A stretch of DNA of 7,674 nucleotides from an uncultured Ruminococcus sp. (GTDB lineage Bacteria > Bacillota_A > Clostridia > Oscillospirales > Ruminococcaceae): positions 1 to 7,674 of the forward strand of contig CAMOXW010000063.1 of NCBI GenBank assembly GCA_946629405.1. The letters run 5' to 3'. Shown piece after piece: positions 433-7,641 of this stretch (positions within the stretch are counted from its first letter, which is position 1; every line of letters begins with the position of its first letter). The position numbers and the translations under genes are program-made. Under the pieces are notes generated by a model that was given only the letters and a program-made list of their open reading frames with translations, had not been told where the DNA came from and ran no database searches.

Positions 433-480
433 GCTTGTTCATTTGTTGATAAGATTATTTTATTATGGAACAACAAAAAC

Positions 481-513
481 TGCCGCTGTAATTACACAGC
501 GGCAAATTTTATT
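481..513. terminator. Bidirectional intrinsic terminator between the exporter and the helicase genes
   Basis: A perfect 9-bp stem, TGCCGCTGT (481-489) with ACAGCGGCA (496-504), closes a 6-nt loop. On the plus strand it is followed by AATTTTATT. On the minus strand it is followed by GTTTTTGTTG, the complement of 471-480. It lies 49 nt after the exporter stop and 18 nt after the helicase stop, so it can end both converging transcripts. Confidence 0.85.
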
Positions 514-521
514 CTATGGCT

Positions 522-2765
522 TCAATTGTTCAGGCGGAGGGCAGCCCATTCGGCAATGCGCTCGCGCATACCCTTGATATCGAGGATCCCGTGAGCAAAG
601 CCCTTGCGGATGAGCTCTGCTGGAAGAAATTCGTCATATTTCTCGAATACCGGCACCTCGCCGGGATAGACGAGATCCTCCGGGGGAAAGTCCTTTGCGG
701 CTTCCTCAGCGAGTACGCGGAAGAATTCCTCCGGCTGTGCCTTCATGGTGAACTGGATGAAATACGGCCGCGAGGAGTCCAATCCCTTCAGTCCGAGGCG
801 GTCGGCGCATTTGATTTTAAGCAGACGTTCGAGTGCAAGAAAGGCATAGCTCCCGAGCCACGGCAGCAAACACCAGACCGAACCTCCGAGGCATATCAGG
901 GGAGTATTGGTGAAGCCTGAGTTTTTCGCGGTATTTCGTGCCTGAGCGAGTCTTGCGGCAGCGTTTTTCATCAGGTAAGGATACCGTGTTTCCTCGGTGA
1001 GCACAAGGCGCATACGCTCGAGTATCTTTGTATTGATATCGCCGGCGCAGTCGCCGAAATACGCGGGGACCTTGCCCTTTATCATCTGGACATAGACGAG
1101 CCTGCGCTTGTGGTCGATCTCCTCGACTATCCAGACATGGCCGGCTATTGCGACTTTTTCGCCGACCGGCGGAGGCATGACAATGGTACCGAGCTCCTGT
1201 GATTCCCAGCGGACGGTGTACTCCTCGTTTTCCTGGAAAACGGCGTAGAATTTGAAGCTGTTGACGATCCGTTCGCCCGCAAGTCCGACTATCAGCCCGC
1301 CTTCCTCGGTGCGCTGGATATGTTCAGTTTCGAGGAGACGCCGCAGGAGAACGCGGTAGTCGTCCTTAGTTATGCGGTGGAACATTTTCATTGTAAGCAC
1401 GCTTCTTGCGAGCTCAGGAGGTGTCATTTCGCCCGACGCGGCAAGAGTGCTCATGGTCTGATGATAGAGCAGGGAAAACGGCAGTCTGTCGAGCTTCGGA
1501 GGCTCGACCCAGCGTTCCTCCCGGTAGACCTGTATGAGGGCAATGCCCTGCAAAAGCTTCCACGGGATAGTCTCCGGCAGCAGCGAGCGAGGTTCGGGGA
1601 GCTCCTCGCGTATCACGAACCACATTTCCGGCGGAAGACCGCGTCTGCCTGTTCGTCCCATTCTTTGCAGGAAAGACGAAACAGTGAATGGAGCGTCGAT
1701 CTGGAAGGCGCGTTCGAGCCTGCCGATGTCGATACCGAGTTCGAGTGTCGCGGTGGTGCAGGTAGTCATGAAGATATCGTCGTCCTTCATTGCAGCCTCG
1801 GCAGTCTCGCGGTAGGCTGAGGAAAGATTTCCGTGGTGGATAAGGAAACGGTCGGGCTCGTTATTTGCCTCGCAGTAGGAGCGCAGAGTAGTTGTGACAG
1901 CCTCGCATTCCTCGCGCGAATTAACGAAAACAAGGCATTTTTTGCCTCTTGTATGCTCAAAGATATAGCCCATTCCGGCGTCGGCGTGCGGAGGAGCGGT
2001 GTCGGTCGCACTATCGAGTACGGGGAGAGCTTCGGGAACGCTTTTGTCCTCGGGGACGTCCTGCTGACTGATGTAGAAGTGCTCCATAGACAGCCGCCAC
2101 TTCACGCCTTTTACCTCTGTTCTGGGAGTAACGGTGCCGCGTTTTGTGCCGGCGGAAAGGAAATCTCCAGCTGCACGGAGGTCGCCTAAGGTTGCAGAAA
2201 GTCCTATTCTTCGCGGATCACAGCCTGCGAGCCTTGTAAGTCTTTCGATAAGGCAAAGTGTCTGACCTCCCCGGTCGCCGCGCATGAGCGAATGCAGCTC
2301 GTCGATGACGATAAAGCGCAGATCGCCGAAAAGCTTTGGTATAAGCGCGTGTTTTCGCAGGAGCATCGCCTCGAGTGATTCCGGAGTGATCTGGAGAATG
2401 CCCGAGGGATGTTTCAGCATCCTGCTTTTGTGGGACTGTGCGACATCGCCGTGCCAGTGCCAGACGGGGATGCCGGCTTCCTCGCAGAGGGTGTTGAGGC
2501 GTGAAAACTGGTCGTTTATCAGCGCTTTCAGCGGACCGATGTACAGTGCTCCGACAGAGCGGGGCATATCCTCCGAAAACAGGGTAAGTATCGGGAAAAA
2601 AGCAGCCTCAGTCTTACCTGAGGCAGTTGAAGCCGAGAGCAGAACGTTCTGGTCGGTATTGAATATCGCGTCAGCGGCGGCAGCCTGTATTGCGCGGAGG
2701 TCGTCCCAGCCGCTGCGGTAGATGAAGTCTTGTATGAAGGGAGCGTATCTGCTGAAAATGTCCAT
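522..2765 (-). CDS. Lhr-like superfamily II DEAD/DEAH helicase (Shango SngC / BrxHI-like)
   Basis: A 747-residue helicase, predicted to unwind or translocate on nucleic acid using ATP. All SF2 motifs are visible: a Q-motif-like region (W20-Q27), motif I ASTASGKTEA (about 45-54), Ia GPLKALINDQ (78-87), Ib TPES (127-130), motif II DELH (155-158), III SATLG (190-194), IV LVFVNSREE (278-286), V TTATLELGIDIG (337-348) and VI QRMGRTGRRG (367-376). After motif VI, residues about 425-460 look like the winged-helix part of Lhr-type helicases. The remainder (about 500-747) is a less conserved C-terminal region. It is about half the length of full-size Lhr, so this is the short, defence-associated type. 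The start is the ATG at 2765, with AAAGGA (2772-2777) 6 nt upstream. It is the last gene of the operon, 15 nt after the ArsC-like gene. In context it matches the helicase of Shango (TerB, ATPase, helicase) and is similar to BrxHI of type 2 BREX. The helicase call is certain; the system assignment is inference. Confidence 0.93.
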   Translation of the reverse strand: MDIFSRYAPFIQDFIYRSGWDDLRAIQAAAADAIFNTDQNVLLSASTASGKTEAAFFPILTLFSEDMPRSVGALYIGPLKALINDQFSRLNTLCEEAGIPVWHWHGDVAQSHKSRMLKHPSGILQITPESLEAMLLRKHALIPKLFGDLRFIVIDELHSLMRGDRGGQTLCLIERLTRLAGCDPRRIGLSATLGDLRAAGDFLSAGTKRGTVTPRTEVKGVKWRLSMEHFYISQQDVPEDKSVPEALPVLDSATDTAPPHADAGMGYIFEHTRGKKCLVFVNSREECEAVTTTLRSYCEANNEPDRFLIHHGNLSSAYRETAEAAMKDDDIFMTTCTTATLELGIDIGRLERAFQIDAPFTVSSFLQRMGRTGRRGLPPEMWFVIREELPEPRSLLPETIPWKLLQGIALIQVYREERWVEPPKLDRLPFSLLYHQTMSTLAASGEMTPPELARSVLTMKMFHRITKDDYRVLLRRLLETEHIQRTEEGGLIVGLAGERIVNSFKFYAVFQENEEYTVRWESQELGTIVMPPPVGEKVAIAGHVWIVEEIDHKRRLVYVQMIKGKVPAYFGDCAGDINTKILERMRLVLTEETRYPYLMKNAAARLAQARNTAKNSGFTNTPLICLGGSVWCLLPWLGSYAFLALERLLKIKCADRLGLKGLDSSRPYFIQFTMKAQPEEFFRVLAEEAAKDFPPEDLVYPGEVPVFEKYDEFLPAELIRKGFAHGILDIKGMRERIAEWAALRLNN

Positions 2766-2780
2766 AATACGTCCTTTCAG

Positions 2781-3131
2781 CTATTTCAGCAGCTCAGCCC
2801 ACTGAGCCTCCTTAAAGCCTGCGAGAACGGTGCTGCCGCTGATGAGAAGGGGGCGCTTAACGAGCATACCGTCGGTTGCAAGGAGGCTTATCATCTCGCC
2901 GTCGGACATATCGGGGAGCTTGTCCTTGAGCTGCATGGAGCGGTATAGCATACCGCTTGTGTTAAAGAGCTTTCTGGGCGGGAGGCCGCTCATTTTTGCC
3001 CATTCTGCGAGCTCCTCCGCAGTCGGGTTATCAGTTTTTATATCGCGCAGCTCATAGCTCAGACCGTTGGCGTCGAGCCATTTTTTTGCTTTCTGGCAGG
3101 TGGAGCATTTGGGGTAGCATATGAAAAGCAT
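2781..3131 (-). CDS. ArsC/Spx-family thioredoxin-fold protein with CxxC motif
   Basis: A 116-residue cytosolic protein of the arsenate reductase (ArsC)/Spx/YusI superfamily. The N-terminus MLFICYPKCSTC has the beta-strand followed by a CxxC active site (C9 and C12). It is followed by the family's 'A-KKWLDANG' helix, the FNTSGMLYR segment (about 56-64) and the late LVKRPLLI segment (about 90-97), whose arginine corresponds to the conserved substrate-binding arginine of ArsC. The CxxC fits a disulfide-exchange role better than classical arsenate reduction. No ars genes are nearby, and a role in arsenic resistance is not supported. A 126-residue version starting at 3161 is possible, but AGGAGG at 3138-3143 sits 6 nt before the ATG at 3131 and decides the start. 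The gene is packed 10 nt after the ATPase stop and 15 nt before the helicase, so it is translated from the same message. Its role in the operon is unknown; it may sense or adjust redox state, or interact with RNA polymerase as Spx does. Confidence 0.88.
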   Translation of the reverse strand: MLFICYPKCSTCQKAKKWLDANGLSYELRDIKTDNPTAEELAEWAKMSGLPPRKLFNTSGMLYRSMQLKDKLPDMSDGEMISLLATDGMLVKRPLLISGSTVLAGFKEAQWAELLK

Positions 3132-3137
3132 GGTATT

Positions 3138-3143
3138 CCTCCT
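3138..3143 (-). promoter_or_regulatory. Start-deciding ribosome binding site of the ArsC-like gene
   Basis: AGGAGG on the minus strand, 6 nt before the ATG at 3131. Its first bases are part of the ATPase stop codon TAG (3142-3144), which suggests translational coupling. It rules against the more upstream in-frame start at 3161, which lies inside the ATPase gene. Confidence 0.85.
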
Positions 3144-4452
3144 ATATTTCAAATTCTGCAAATTCTTCGTCCTGAGGCGAATTATCCGCAGCAGCCGGTG
3201 GGGTGCTGACGGTGCCGATTATTTCCGGCACTGGCATAGCGGGGTTCTGGAAGGCAATGTCCAGAACGGTAATGAAATCGCGAATAACCTCGCGGGGAGT
3301 TATGTGGCTGTCGGCGCCTATCCTGCCGAATTCAGTCTGGATGAAGGCGACCTCCTCCGCCTGAGTGATGCGCTGGGGATAGCCGTAGAGCTGGGCGTGG
3401 ATATCGGCGAGCTTCTCTGTGAGGACGAGCATTTCCTCATAGGTCAGCGGAACAAGGCGGATCATCGGGGACATCATATCGGTAAGTCCGCCGGAGGTGA
3501 ACCGGCTGTCCGCGAGTCTTGAACGGAGCGCCTCATAGCTGAAAACGCCGCGGCGTCCGTCCTCGATGCACTGAGGAGTGCCGCCCATGATAATGCCGAG
3601 ATAGCGGGCTTTTCCCTGCAAAGTATCGTTGTACATCGTGAGTATTTTTTCGTAGTTATACTGGCGGGTGATGCTGTTGGGTATCTTATAGATATTGACG
3701 AGTTCGTCGATGAGGACGAGCATACCGCTGTAGCCTGCGCGTCTGAGGAACATGGCAAAGAGCTTGATATATTCGTACCAGTCGTCGTCGGTGATGATGA
3801 TATTCACTCCGAGGTCAGCCTTAGCCTCAGTTTTTGTGGAATACTCACCCCTGAACCACTTGACAGCCTTTGCCTTCAGGGCATCATCGCCGGACACGCT
3901 TGCCCGGTAGTACATCACAAGGAGATTTGCGAAGTCGAAGCCGTGTACCATTTCGCTGAGTGAGCTTACGACCTCATATATCCGGCTCTCGACGGCTTTG
4001 CTGAACTCCGGTGACTGCGGGGAGAGCGTTCCTTCCGCGGCGACCTCTGACTGTATGCCGCTTATCCACCTGTCGAGGACGAGGGTGAGCGCACCGCCGT
4101 CCGGCCGGGTCTTGGTGGACATATTGGAGATGAGCTCCTTGTAGGTCGCAAGTCCCTGTCCCTTGTTTCCGTGGAGGCGTCGCTCCGGGGAGAGGTCGGC
4201 ATCGACCACGACGAAGTTTCTGTCCATAACGTGGCTGCGTATGGTTTGCAGCAGGAAGCTTTTTCCGCTGCCGTATTTTCCGACGATGAAGCGGAAAGAA
4301 GCTCCGCCGTCAGCGATGATCTCAACGTCCCTGAGAAGGGCGTCTATCTCCTTTTCGCGTCCGACGGTCACATAAGCAAGCCCCGTCCGCGGAACGACAC
4401 CGCCCTTGAGGGAATTGATGACCGCAGAGGCTATCCTTTTGGGAATATTCAT
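3142..4452 (-). CDS. BREX-type (BrxC/BrxD-like, DUF2791) P-loop ATPase; Shango SngB-like
   Basis: A 436-residue cytosolic ATPase. Walker A is GKYGSGKS (58-65), preceded by the FRFIVGKYGSGKS strand. Walker B is LVLIDE (245-250), on a hydrophobic strand. The segment GIIMGGTP (286-293) is placed like a sensor 1 strand, and PREVIRDF (386-393) like a sensor 2/lid helix. The opening (IASAVINSLKGGVVPRTG) and the 'VGREKEI' strand before Walker A are typical of the BREX ATP-binding family (pfam10923 type) that includes BrxD. The tail (about 415-436) is acidic and probably disordered. A GTG at 4461, touching the TerB stop, would add three residues. I prefer the ATG at 4452 because AGGTGA (4458-4463) is 5 nt upstream of it. 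The gene lies 9 nt after the TerB gene. Known relatives act with helicases in phage defence. An ATP-driven loader or remodeller working with the Lhr-like helicase is the likely role, by inference. Confidence 0.9.
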   Translation of the reverse strand: MNIPKRIASAVINSLKGGVVPRTGLAYVTVGREKEIDALLRDVEIIADGGASFRFIVGKYGSGKSFLLQTIRSHVMDRNFVVVDADLSPERRLHGNKGQGLATYKELISNMSTKTRPDGGALTLVLDRWISGIQSEVAAEGTLSPQSPEFSKAVESRIYEVVSSLSEMVHGFDFANLLVMYYRASVSGDDALKAKAVKWFRGEYSTKTEAKADLGVNIIITDDDWYEYIKLFAMFLRRAGYSGMLVLIDELVNIYKIPNSITRQYNYEKILTMYNDTLQGKARYLGIIMGGTPQCIEDGRRGVFSYEALRSRLADSRFTSGGLTDMMSPMIRLVPLTYEEMLVLTEKLADIHAQLYGYPQRITQAEEVAFIQTEFGRIGADSHITPREVIRDFITVLDIAFQNPAMPVPEIIGTVSTPPAAADNSPQDEEFAEFEI

Positions 4453-4457
4453 GTTTT

Positions 4458-4463
4458 TCACCT
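4458..4463 (-). promoter_or_regulatory. Ribosome binding site of the ATPase gene overlapping the TerB stop codon
   Basis: AGGTGA on the minus strand, 5 nt before the ATG at 4452. Its AG comes from the TAG stop (4462-4464) of the TerB gene. The same bases contain the competing GTG start at 4461, which has only a weaker GGAAG upstream. Confidence 0.65.
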
Positions 4464-5928
4464 ATTCTTCCGGGTATTTTTCTTTGAGCTCCGCAGCGTA
4501 GTCCTCGATTATCGCAGGTATTTCTCCGTCGAACTCAATGACTGTGTCGCCGAAGATATCAAAGAGCTTTTCATTCACTGTGTCGGCGATCATCGAGGGG
4601 AGAATCCCGCAGCCTGCGGCAGTTCCGCGCCAGTTGCCGCGATAGAGAAGACTTTTCAGGAACGCCTCCTCATGAGCGCTGAGCAGGCATTCCTGTGCAG
4701 GTGAGGAGTTCTGCACGGGCATTGCAGGGGGAAGGTCATCTGTTTCCTCATCGACTATGAGCTTTTCGCGCGTGAGCTCGGAGGCAGAGCGTATCGCATC
4801 GAGTGCTGAGAGGTCAATGTGTATCTCGCGCACCTGAGCGGCTTTTTCCTCAGAAACAAGGCTGTCTATCGCGTTTTTCGCCAGCTTTGCCGAAGAAGCT
4901 GAGATCTCACCGGGAGCGAGCTTGTGGAGCTTGCCGGTTTTTTCGCGCAGCAGGCTGTCAACAGTCCGGACGATCTCGCCGAGGGGCTTGTTCCTGCCGC
5001 GGTTGCCGTACAGCTTACAGCAGGACCATTCGCCGCCGTGACATTCAAGGATGTGCAGAGGGTCGGCCATATAGACAAGATCGCGGCGGGGCGAGGTATC
5101 GAAGAATACTGCCGATTCAAAGATCCGGTGGCGTATCTTGATCATTTTTCCGAAAAGCCTGTCCGCGAGAGTTTTCTTCCGGTGCTTTGCGAAATAGTCC
5201 GAAAGCGCGCAGTATGTACGGTAAACGGCTTTCCGGAAAAGCTCCGGCTCAGCCTGATACATCTGGGAGGACTCCGCCTGGTAAGCCGAAAGCCTTAAAA
5301 CAGCCGTGCAAAGCTCATCCTCCGGGGCTTTATCCCAGTTCATCAGCGTGAGGACTGCTTTGTCAAAGAGCATATCCGGCAGATCTGCGAGCAATTCCTG
5401 CGGGAGCTGATGATAGGCAGCGAGGTCGGTGAGCCATTTGCGGACGTGTTTCTGAAGCTCTGCATTTTCTGTGCAATTGTCCGCGAGGGCTTTCAGTGAC
5501 ATGAACGCAGCCTCGGGGGAAGGCGTTCCGATAAGGTTGATAAGCTCATAGGCGTACATCAGTGCAAAAGCCTGCGGAGCCTCAGGATATTCGCCTGACC
5601 TTACCCTTGTGCGCCACGAAAAATAGCCGCGGAGCTGTTCCGTACCGAGGTCGCGGTAAGTTGGGTAATAAGCCGTAAATTCCTCACCGAACGGCTGATC
5701 GTCGGTATAATCTGCCATAAAGATGCCCTGCTGCCGGAAAAGCCATGCAGAGGTTTTCCAGTAAGCCTCCGGAGTATAGGCGAGGGCTTTCATATCCCTG
5801 ATCCGTTCGGGGACGTCCTCGCGCCGGTCGGTGCTGCGCCGGAGACCGAGCGGGATGTCGCGGTAGACCTTTGGCTCAGGGATGCCGGCTGTGGGAAATA
5901 TATCAAAATCGTCAAAGCTGTCGGTCAA
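4462..5928 (-). CDS. TerB-N/TerB-C domain protein (Shango SngA-like)
   Basis: A 488-residue soluble protein; no signal peptide or membrane segment is seen. Residues about 52-240 fit the TerB-N domain, marked by the signature LRGYFSWRTRVRSGEY (99-114) and the helix QAFALMYAYELINLIG. The C-terminus (about 415-482) fits TerB-C: HEEAFLKSLLYRGNW, then NEKLFDIFGDTVIEFDGEIP and IIEDYAAELKEKYPEE. Between them (about 240-400) is a helical, charged region with a Cys/His cluster, ECHGGEWSCC (295-304). I do not see a clear classical acidic TerB domain in the middle. Ter-linked proteins of this kind are associated with ATPases and helicases in stress-response and antiphage loci, and exactly that pair follows here. 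The start is unusual. A TTG at 5958 overlaps the end of the GH25 gene by 8 nt and lacks a good ribosome site. The TTG at 5928 has GGGAGG 8 nt upstream and is preferred. No ATG occurs before codon 46. Its molecular role is unknown; a scaffold or sensor is inferred. Confidence 0.88.
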   Translation of the reverse strand: MTDSFDDFDIFPTAGIPEPKVYRDIPLGLRRSTDRREDVPERIRDMKALAYTPEAYWKTSAWLFRQQGIFMADYTDDQPFGEEFTAYYPTYRDLGTEQLRGYFSWRTRVRSGEYPEAPQAFALMYAYELINLIGTPSPEAAFMSLKALADNCTENAELQKHVRKWLTDLAAYHQLPQELLADLPDMLFDKAVLTLMNWDKAPEDELCTAVLRLSAYQAESSQMYQAEPELFRKAVYRTYCALSDYFAKHRKKTLADRLFGKMIKIRHRIFESAVFFDTSPRRDLVYMADPLHILECHGGEWSCCKLYGNRGRNKPLGEIVRTVDSLLREKTGKLHKLAPGEISASSAKLAKNAIDSLVSEEKAAQVREIHIDLSALDAIRSASELTREKLIVDEETDDLPPAMPVQNSSPAQECLLSAHEEAFLKSLLYRGNWRGTAAGCGILPSMIADTVNEKLFDIFGDTVIEFDGEIPAIIEDYAAELKEKYPEE

Positions 5929-5950: not shown

Positions 5951-7267
5951 TTATTCAAGTGGCAGGCTTCTGTACAGGACGTTCATGTCAACGTCGCCGC
6001 AGATGCCGGGTATCTGTCCGGTGCAGCTTCCTTGCCAGATAGCGTAATCACCGGTATAATCGGTCTCATCGCAGTAGTGTGCGAGCCAGACCGGGTGAAT
6101 GCTCTTGGCTTCCTCTGTCCACACGCTGTTGAGAAAATTCTTGCTGCTGTAGAGCATGGGGGAGAGGCCGCATTTTTCGAGCTCATCCGCGAAGGCGAAG
6201 TACAGCTCGTTGAGCTGGTGGAGGCTGATGCCGAACTCCTGGAAGGTCCCGAAGTCCTCCCAGTCAAAGGCGACCGGCAGTGCGAGCTTGGTATCGCCGA
6301 CGAGACCGGCTATCCAGCGGGCGTGTTCGCGGACGGCTTCCTCGGTGCTGTCGCCGGAGTAGAAGTAGAGCCCGACGTTCAGTCCGACTTCGTTGGCTTT
6401 GCGGAAATTCGCCTCAAACTGCTTGTCGGTGACGCGGTTGCTGTAGCAGTAGCCGGTTCTCATAATGACAAACGAGCAGCCGGCGTTTTTCACGGCATTG
6501 AAGTCGATATCGCCCTGCCACTCGGAAACGTCGATACCGAAGGAGCGGCCCTCGCCGGCGTACCTTGCCATAAAGCTTTCAAACGGCTGCTTTTCGCCGT
6601 TATATGGCTGCTGCTGAGGGGGATAGTCCAAGACGTTCACGGTAACGTCAAAGCTGGCAGAGTTGCCGGAGCTGTCGGTGACGGTCGCGGTGAGCGGGTA
6701 GCTGCCGCTGGTATTCGGGTCGATATTTCCGGTATATGTCAGTACGGGAGCGCTGTCGTAATTATCGGCATAACCGACGTAGTCGCTGAGGTCGAAGGCG
6801 TTTCCGCGCAGGTGATTGGCGTTCCAGCCGCTGTTGAGGATAAGCGGAGCGGTCTTGTCAACGACGCTGAATGTGATTTTTTTTTCAGAGGGAACGCCGT
6901 CTACGGTGCATTTCACAGTGACCTCATGCGAGCCGGTGGAGGAGGTGTCAATAAGCTCGTCGGGCTGGGAAAGAACTCCGTTTGTTGAGGTAACGAATTC
7001 AGAGAGGCTGACCTTGTCGAAAACTTCCACCTCACTCAGGCAGGTCATGACGAGCTCCTCATGTGGCGCGGGAGCAGTTGAAGAAGGCGGAAGGTCAGTC
7101 TGCACGGAAGTTGTTGCAGCCGCGGAAGAAGTAGTATCAGGAACGGAAGATACCACAGATGAGGTCTTTTCAGGCGTATCGGAGGATGTATTGCTGTCCC
7201 TGACTTTACCGCAGCCTGATGATAAAGCGAGCAAAGCGGCAGCGGAAAGCAGAAAAGTTTTGTTCAT
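5951..7267 (-). CDS. GH25 muramidase (lysozyme-like) lipoprotein with Ig-like modules
   Basis: A 438-residue exported protein that should hydrolyse the MurNAc-GlcNAc bonds of peptidoglycan. The first 19 residues are a lipoprotein signal peptide: MNKT, a hydrophobic core, then the lipobox-like LSSGC with C19 as lipid anchor. A Ser/Thr/Pro-rich linker follows (about 22-68). Two beta-rich Ig/DUF5011-like modules come next (about 72-136 and 137-214; the second has the DKTAP start and the TVTDSSGNSASF end). The GH25 domain spans about 240-438. It has the FGIDVSEWQG start (D246), the catalytic AFDWED strand (D335, E337), the SPMLYSS strand and the closing IWQGSC...GDVDMN segment (D425, D427). The ATG at 7267 has AAAGGA (7275-7280) 7 nt upstream. 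It is the first gene of the operon, and its 3' end meets the TerB gene. It would act at the outer membrane face or in the wall, unlike its cytosolic neighbours, which makes its place in the operon odd. Confidence 0.93.
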   Translation of the reverse strand: MNKTFLLSAAALLALSSGCGKVRDSNTSSDTPEKTSSVVSSVPDTTSSAAATTSVQTDLPPSSTAPAPHEELVMTCLSEVEVFDKVSLSEFVTSTNGVLSQPDELIDTSSTGSHEVTVKCTVDGVPSEKKITFSVVDKTAPLILNSGWNANHLRGNAFDLSDYVGYADNYDSAPVLTYTGNIDPNTSGSYPLTATVTDSSGNSASFDVTVNVLDYPPQQQPYNGEKQPFESFMARYAGEGRSFGIDVSEWQGDIDFNAVKNAGCSFVIMRTGYCYSNRVTDKQFEANFRKANEVGLNVGLYFYSGDSTEEAVREHARWIAGLVGDTKLALPVAFDWEDFGTFQEFGISLHQLNELYFAFADELEKCGLSPMLYSSKNFLNSVWTEEAKSIHPVWLAHYCDETDYTGDYAIWQGSCTGQIPGICGDVDMNVLYRSLPLE

Positions 7268-7291: not shown

Positions 7292-7321
7292 ATTATATTT
7301 ATGTCTGCTCAACAATTTAAA
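7292..7321 (-). promoter_or_regulatory. Possible proximal promoter of the operon (alternative)
   Basis: On the minus strand, TTTAAA (7316-7321), an 18-nt spacer and TATAAT (7292-7297) would start transcription near 7285, leaving a leader of about 18 nt that still contains the ribosome site. The -35 box matches only 4 of 6 positions and the region is AT-rich, so this may be chance. Confidence 0.35.
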
Positions 7322-7564: not shown

Positions 7565-7641
7565 GTCCCAATAGCTCAGGAGGATAGAGCGACTGCCTCC
7601 TAAGCAGTAGGCCGGAGGTTCGACTCCTCTTTGGGACGCCA
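7565..7641 (+). tRNA. tRNA-Arg with anticodon CCT
   Basis: A complete cloverleaf with encoded CCA. The acceptor stem is GTCCCAA (7565-7571) with TTGGGAC (7631-7637). The D stem is GCTC with GAGC (7574-7577, 7587-7590). The anticodon stem is ACTGC with GCAGT (7592-7596, 7604-7608), closing the loop CTCCTAA with anticodon CCT at 7599-7601, which reads AGG. The T stem is GGAGG with CCTCT (one G-U pair) around TTCGACT. The discriminator is G7638 and CCA is 7639-7641. It is divergent from the operon. Such tRNA-Arg genes are frequent integration sites for islands and phages, but no second copy of its 3' end was found here. Confidence 0.95.

Follow-up and report, generated by a model that had tools for sequence, protein, structure and literature searches.

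A Shango locus with a compact SngA protein in a Ruminococcus genome

Background

We analysed a stretch of 7674 bases from an uncultured Ruminococcus sp. (contig CAMOXW010000063.1, hereafter the window), in which a gene run lying entirely on the minus strand contains the three genes of the antiphage system Shango. The gene sngA (4462..5928) encodes a compact SngA of 488 amino acids with the domains TerB_N and TerB_C, as recognised by Pfam and PADLOC. It is followed by sngB (3142..4452), coding for an AAA+ ATPase of the BrxC/BrxD family of 436 amino acids (Pfam, PADLOC and predicted fold), and, after a small gene of the Spx/MgsR/ArsC family, by sngC (522..2765), whose product of 747 amino acids is a superfamily 2 (SF2) helicase resembling Lhr and BrxHI with intact helicase motifs (Pfam, PADLOC). 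Longer open reading frames (ORFs) extend to 5958 for sngA (TTG start, 498 amino acids) and to 4461 for sngB (GTG start); a database protein of 488 amino acids (P0121) is 100% identical to the window SngA. Among named organisms, the closest relatives of the window SngB belong to Ruminococcus.

Shango is a known kind of system, and the literature on it is cited here from extracts. In strain PAO1 it gives 10- to 100-fold protection on plates against many, but not all, phages and strong protection in liquid; the tested systems are those of Pseudomonas aeruginosa PA14 and Escherichia coli, the latter cited as an earlier report (PMC10250203). A review table assigns PF05099 to Shango (PMC10952713), and a helicase analysis groups SngC with BrxHI, DruE and DpdJ (PMC12278908). 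Shango was found in less than 20% of the isolates in a Clostridium perfringens survey (PMC13251782), and a rumen survey already names it among the systems detected by DefenseFinder (PMC13356809), so that its occurrence in rumen microbes is not new. No title or abstract on the Shango mechanism or on SngA subtypes was among the matches listed for the open-licence PMC literature.

Assignment of the locus to Shango

The original prediction had called the locus a Shango-type module, and the profile searches bore this out for all three proteins, which match the PADLOC Shango models nearly end to end. SngA matched at 2.5e-71 (residues 31-493 of the 498-amino-acid ORF against model positions 53-525 of 528), SngB at 8.1e-191 (positions 1-439 of 439) and SngC at 1.5e-278 (positions 5-715 of 720). 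The Pfam E-values were 1.3e-21 for TerB_N and 9.2e-21 for TerB_C in SngA, 1.1e-171 for BrxC_BrxD in SngB and 3.4e-27 for DEAD in SngC, which also carries Helicase_C. The key motifs reported earlier are indeed intact in the translations, with GKYGSGKS and LVLIDE in SngB (Walker A and B) and DELH and QRMGRTGRRG in SngC. The three genes had also been described as adjacent on the same strand; the strand and the intact ORFs stand, but the Spx/ArsC-like gene separates sngB from sngC, and apart from this insertion the genes follow the Shango order on a single strand, as A-B-(Spx/ArsC)-C.

A hybrid of Ter and BREX components had been considered as well. One could also read the trio as a BrxD-BrxHI pair of type 2 BREX, either partial or free-standing, joined by a Ter-type protein; in favour of this, SngB is a PF10923 protein, the BrxD and BrxHI models match SngB and SngC with high significance, and SngC and BrxHI share one helicase clade in the extract of PMC12278908. 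However, the PADLOC scores on the window SngB were 633 bits for SngB against 173 for BrxD, and those on the window SngC 924 for SngC against 405 for BrxHI. The NCBIfam BrxD model NF033438 gave 173 bits, under its cut-off of 350, and thus falls short of an equivalog-level BrxD. Profile scans with Pfam, PADLOC and NCBIfam found no PglZ, PglX, PglW or BREX methylase in the window, in agreement with the earlier reading, and a PglZ match was present in 3 of 20 SngB-carrying genomes, the four closest to the window (G001, G002, G078, G086) having none. Models of PglZ, PglX, PglW, the BREX methylase, Cas and restriction proteins were also absent from the PADLOC matches of neighbouring genes at 1e-15. 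The scores, the NCBIfam cut-off and the lack of neighbouring Pgl genes largely refute the BREX pair, which we consider hardly credible. The locus is Shango and not a BREX hybrid, and its membership of the Shango family is almost certain.

A compact SngA without a detectable TerB core

In the window SngA Pfam recognised TerB_N (residues 59-231) and TerB_C (358-482) and no other domain, and its C-terminal end is predicted to adopt a winged-helix-like fold. The TerB core PF05099 was not detected at E ≤ 0.1, a custom TerB profile gave an E-value of 7.5, and an N-terminal transmembrane segment was not detected. In a set (A1) composed of the window protein and 70 database relatives, TerB_N and TerB_C were each found in 71/71 and PF05099 in 0/71; among 76 SngA proteins from genome loci the corresponding counts were 75, 76 and 0, the sets A1 and A5 sharing species, so that counts for the compact clade overlap. 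PF05099 also went undetected in two copies from Paenibacillus plasmids and in 11 others of the same phylum (L241-L251), all of them likewise compact.

In contrast, the TerB core is present in SngA from proteobacterial plasmids. Pfam recognised PF05099 in seven of eight copies (L236-L239, L255-L257) and missed it in the Aeromonas copy L235, whereas the custom profile, whose eight positives are seven proteobacterial copies and L252, matched all eight (L235 at 2e-15), the best of the other 162 targets reaching an E-value of 0.59. L252, which belongs to the phylum of the window, has a SngA with PF05099. Membrane segments were called by a simple hydropathy rule and, for L256 and L257, read in ORFs extending upstream of the annotated or known start. 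N-terminal segments were found in seven of the eight proteobacterial plasmid copies (all but L237), in L252 and L253 and, among compact copies, in L250 only; a weak internal segment occurs in 5/71 proteins of A1, in 2/77 genome-locus copies and in L246. Pfam further recognised a TM2 domain in L254 and DUF805 in L255. Some SngA proteins of the compact clade carry long N-terminal extensions in which no Pfam domain was recognised, with total lengths of 1431 (L244), 816 (L246), 792 (L249) and 1052 (L240) amino acids.

A quick, midpoint-rooted tree of 51 SngB rows, with long-branch warnings for L250, L252, L251 and L086, contains three deep groups: a TerB group of L252 and the eight Proteobacteria (99*), a compact group of 40 rows including L250 (99*), and L253 with L254 (100*). 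In the SngC tree, built in the same way and carrying ten such warnings, compact rows are separated from all others by one change. In both trees "compact" was the default label; it was given to L082, L083, L084 and L086 without a Pfam scan of their SngA, and most other genome-contig rows were scanned after tree-building. The third deep SngB branch, formed by L253 and L254, has SngA proteins with membrane segments (TM2 in L254) in which the TerB core was not detected.

Because of this domain split in SngA and the partitions of the SngB and SngC trees, the window locus is, on sequence grounds, a distinct, deep, compact Shango subtype whose SngA has no detectable TerB core or membrane anchor. The window SngA thus lacks the core by which the review table characterises Shango, and, since the PADLOC SngA model matches even so, we regard its absence as marking a subtype. 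The compact form lacking the TerB core is what is new here.

Gene order and flanking genes

The order A-B-C on one strand was found in 73 of 80 relatives, namely the best 80 of 358 genome-contig stretches encoding an SngB relative, mostly from Ruminococcus and other Clostridia. The seven exceptions are L001, with sngC inverted, L015, with the order A-C-B, L080, which begins within sngB, and L010, L050, L055 and L069, without an SngC match. L069 stops just past sngB and L050 about 1.7 kb past it, and L010 and L055 continue for about 9 and 10 kb beyond sngB without sngC. L010 is a contig of genome G015, whose SngC sits on a different contig; in G041 sngC and sngAB lie on separate contigs of 83 and 210 kb (L176, L177), both genes being internal to them. 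The spacing between sngB and sngC is at most 60 bases in 47 of 74 collinear pairs, 61-299 in 13 and at least 300 in 14. From these split loci and variable gaps we conclude that sngA and sngB stay linked and that sngC is more loosely attached. The sngC of L046 (genome G040) contains one in-frame TAG, reflecting either decay or a sequencing error.

The gene between sngB and sngC in the window (2781..3131, minus strand) encodes a protein of 116 amino acids with a CSTC motif, which scores 93.4 bits against TIGR01617 (cut-off 75.05) and whose best solved relative is 3gkx, titled "Putative ArsC family related protein". In the lineage of the window it could serve the system as a fourth subunit that senses redox state, given its strand, the gaps of 10 and 15 bases on its two sides, its presence at the same position in L002-L004 and its inversion together with sngC, as a block relative to sngAB, in L001 (11359-13940). 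Yet among the 80 loci the insertion is limited to close relatives of the window, most collinear loci have little or no space for it, and in five others (L006, L011, L017, L026, L032) a homologue is located some 7 kb away, on the upstream side of sngA. The slot also receives other genes: L014, L016, L019, L023, L039 and L041 have a small P-loop kinase-like gene there, whose place is taken by longer inserts in L076 and L078. Since the gap holds such differing genes, the Spx/ArsC-like gene is probably a passenger, and a role as a subunit is quite improbable. Shorter, remnant-looking ORFs occupy the slot in L005 and L012.

Immediately 5' of sngA lies a gene for a GH25 glycosidase with a surface Ig-like domain (5951..7267, minus strand); from this gene to sngC the successive intergenic gaps are 22, 9, 10 and 15 bases. 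Consensus scans placed a terminator-like hairpin of 11 pairs with a T tail directly 3' of sngC (480..505, minus strand) and a promoter-like site, TTTAAA-18-TATAAT, 5' of the GH25 gene (7292..7321, minus strand). The latter is a possible promoter for the entire run, and with the hairpin at the other end a single transcript from the GH25 gene to sngC is possible; the inverted repeat at 480-505 was also scored on the opposite strand, 3' of a ThrE-family gene fragment (1-432) that converges toward sngC. GH25 homologues were found in 10/10 of the genomes searched, including five that lack SngB, and the GH25 gene is therefore not judged to be a component of the system. A tRNA-Arg (CCT) gene is located upstream of the run (7565-7641).

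Recurrent neighbours within 10 kb on each side of the 80 loci resemble PrfA, Sua5-like, CoaE, thiamine synthesis, MnmA, acetate kinase, MoxR and other proteins, which we take to be mostly housekeeping functions. PADLOC scans at 1e-15 covered 243 of 290 cluster representatives (ORFs of at least 150 amino acids from 44 full-flank loci) and gave matches to 23 and 7 families, for example DndA/SspA, E1-E2, dGTPase, mad3, QatD and pVip. By family name we read these as cysteine desulfurase, ThiF, dGTPase, ABC ATPase, TatD and radical-SAM look-alikes; RT_UG29/RTasDnaG-like, AriA, DolB, PDC-M37B, PDC-S33 and RT-Protease were also matched, again known by family name. The lone match to SngC/BrxHI is probably a piece of the interrupted sngC of L046 itself, which was included in the scanned set. 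In contrast to the Ruminococcus loci, the proteobacterial TerB-type loci L239 and L257 adjoin toxin-antitoxin genes of the AbiE kind. An SngB relative was present in 691 plasmid records, mostly from Klebsiella (449) and Salmonella (144), all below 60% identity; 542 of these plasmids were called conjugative.

Distribution, inheritance and selection

SngB was found in 41 of 100 genomes sampled from the genus of G001 (Ruminococcus sp., the genome of L001), and SngC (E ≤ 1e-60) in the same 41. At the level of the order SngB was present in 56/245 genomes (E ≤ 1e-3, two of them weak), and at that of the phylum in 16/299 (E ≤ 1e-100). Many of the SngB-carrying Ruminococcus genomes in the sample are rumen genomes. 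The median genome size was 2.9 Mb for carriers (n = 41) and 2.3 Mb for non-carriers (n = 59), a difference that may come from shared ancestry or assembly completeness. As rpoB was unmatched in 7 of the 100 genomes (matched in 93), some of the isolated absences of SngB beside carriers may simply reflect assemblies that are incomplete.

The presence of SngB was mapped onto an rpoB tree that retained 85 genomes of the 100, among them 35 carriers, and left out 15; a few of the 85 had a partial rpoB sequence. It required 16 changes, against 27.0 in shuffles, none of 200 being as low. Cas1, used as a control for a defence gene (26/100 genomes, 23 of the 85), required 20 changes against 20.4, with 100/200 shuffles as low; after removal of weak matches (19 genomes on the tree) it required 16 against 17.4, with 42/200 as low, and was not clearly clustered. 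Protein distances in 32 genomes correlated with those of rpoB, with Mantel r values of 0.81 for SngA, 0.58 for SngB and 0.70 for SngC (0/999 permutations as high). Being neither universal nor scattered like Cas1, the Ruminococcus locus is mostly inherited with the chromosome, with repeated loss or regain; some horizontal transfer of SngB is likely, as its r is only 0.58.

Median pairwise identity in the same 32 genomes was 48% for SngA, 83% for SngB, 85% for SngC and 93% for rpoB. The median ratio of nonsynonymous to synonymous substitution rates (dN/dS), computed from 22 close, non-independent pairs, all with dS < 1.5, was 0.154 for SngA, 0.043 for SngB and 0.034 for SngC. These ratios place all three genes under purifying selection; by dN/dS, the rate of SngA is about four times that of SngB and SngC.

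Possible function and alternative explanations

An antiphage function of the compact variant is likely, and, with slightly more reserve, we think that the window probably holds a complete Shango locus of the compact subtype, made up of a soluble SngA, SngB and SngC and serving in defence. According to a published proposal, BrxD loads or activates BrxHI in the manner of replicative helicase loaders (PMC12839542, seen as an extract). Because of the homology to this pair, we suggest that SngB, predicted to have an Orc1/Cdc6-like fold, would oligomerise and load or activate SngC once SngA has recognised some feature of the infecting phage DNA or of phage replication, a role with which the fast evolution of SngA is consistent. 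SngC, as an SF2 helicase or translocase, would then act on the invading DNA, halting its replication or passing it to a host nuclease; these outcomes are favoured because Pfam, PADLOC and NCBIfam scans recognised no nuclease domain in the three proteins. This loader-helicase mechanism is put forward tentatively, as possible rather than probable.

Somewhat short of an even chance, in our opinion, is the broader proposal that at least two deep Shango subtypes exist: one with a TerB core, mostly anchored in the membrane and represented here by proteobacterial plasmids, the other soluble, compact, devoid of the TerB core and inherited with the chromosome by clostridia as semi-core innate immunity. 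In that case the TerB domain would be dispensable and target recognition would lie on the fast-evolving rest of SngA. Available descriptions of Shango centre on the TerB-like protein; the compact subtype, which keeps SngB, SngC and the TerB_N and TerB_C ends, would amount to a natural deletion experiment that separates a conserved ATPase-helicase engine from a variable adaptor. If true, a semi-core-like inherited defence in Ruminococcus bears on the stability of innate immunity in rumen communities.

Several observations weigh against a defence role or against parts of this scheme. The presence of SngB is tree-like, viral contigs and phage records yielded no copy, and no clear defence gene was recognised, by family name, among the neighbours scanned, a picture less mobile than is usual for a defence system. 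The distances of SngB follow those of rpoB only moderately, which makes some transfer likely. The original prediction had named as counter-evidence a trio universal in the genus and unconnected to defence islands; the trio is not universal, but a clear link to such islands was indeed not seen around the locus. The loader idea is drawn from fold and analogy, the winged-helix-like end of SngA is acidic, with a net charge of -10 across 76 residues, which makes DNA recognition by that part doubtful, and sngC lies away from sngAB in some genomes, so that a tight operon is not required. No phage assay of the compact subtype turned up in the literature consulted, the tested systems in the extract of PMC10250203 being those of P. 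aeruginosa and E. coli. The trio could instead be a genome-maintenance module, acting for example to load a helicase where DNA is damaged or stalled and not primarily against phages, from which the proteobacterial Shango was recruited to defence. The clustered presence of SngB beside an unclustered Cas1, the tracking of rpoB by all three proteins, the mostly housekeeping-like neighbours, the lack of matches in viral contigs or phage records and the purifying selection would all suit such a module. However, SngB is missing from 59 of the 100 genus genomes and is therefore dispensable, the homologous systems are antiphage, and the fast evolution of SngA suits recognition of a changing target, which makes a maintenance function rather unlikely.

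It is also conceivable, if unlikely, that this is ordinary Shango, in which the missing TerB core is a length variation that has no bearing on function or is already familiar to specialists. The PADLOC SngA model of 528 positions matches compact SngA well, which suggests that compact forms may be among its source sequences. Against this stands the sharp split between the proteobacterial plasmid copies, all with the TerB core, and the compact clade, in which none was detected, a split that coincides with a deep starred SngB branch and with the SngC partition. The distinct compact subtype is our preferred explanation.

Comparison with known systems

The locus shares with the tested Shango systems of P. 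aeruginosa PA14 and E. coli a TerB-like protein, an ATPase and a helicase in one operon. It differs from them in its SngA of about 490-500 amino acids, without a detectable TerB core or N-terminal membrane segment (the TerB core of the tested systems being taken from the extract of the review table PMC10952713 and not from their own sequences), and in being chromosomal, with a tree-like presence, no clear defence island and an extra Spx/ArsC-like gene in its lineage. The proteobacterial plasmid systems (Bradyrhizobium, Azospirillum, Phaeobacter, Pantoea, Aeromonas, Rhizorhabdus) have the same three genes, in the order A-B-C in seven annotated loci, but carry the TerB core in 8/8 and the N-terminal membrane segment in 7/8 cases, and two of them adjoin AbiE-type genes. 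The BrxD-BrxHI pair of type 2 BREX also combines a homologous ORC/Cdc6-like ATPase with a tightly linked SF2 helicase, for which the loader idea has been published; in the window, in contrast, no methylase, PglZ or PglW was found, the scores with the BREX models are clearly lower and a TerB_N/TerB_C protein is encoded. Archaeal Cdc6/Orc1 and other AAA+ loaders resemble SngB at the level of the fold only, with about 14% identity and different partners.

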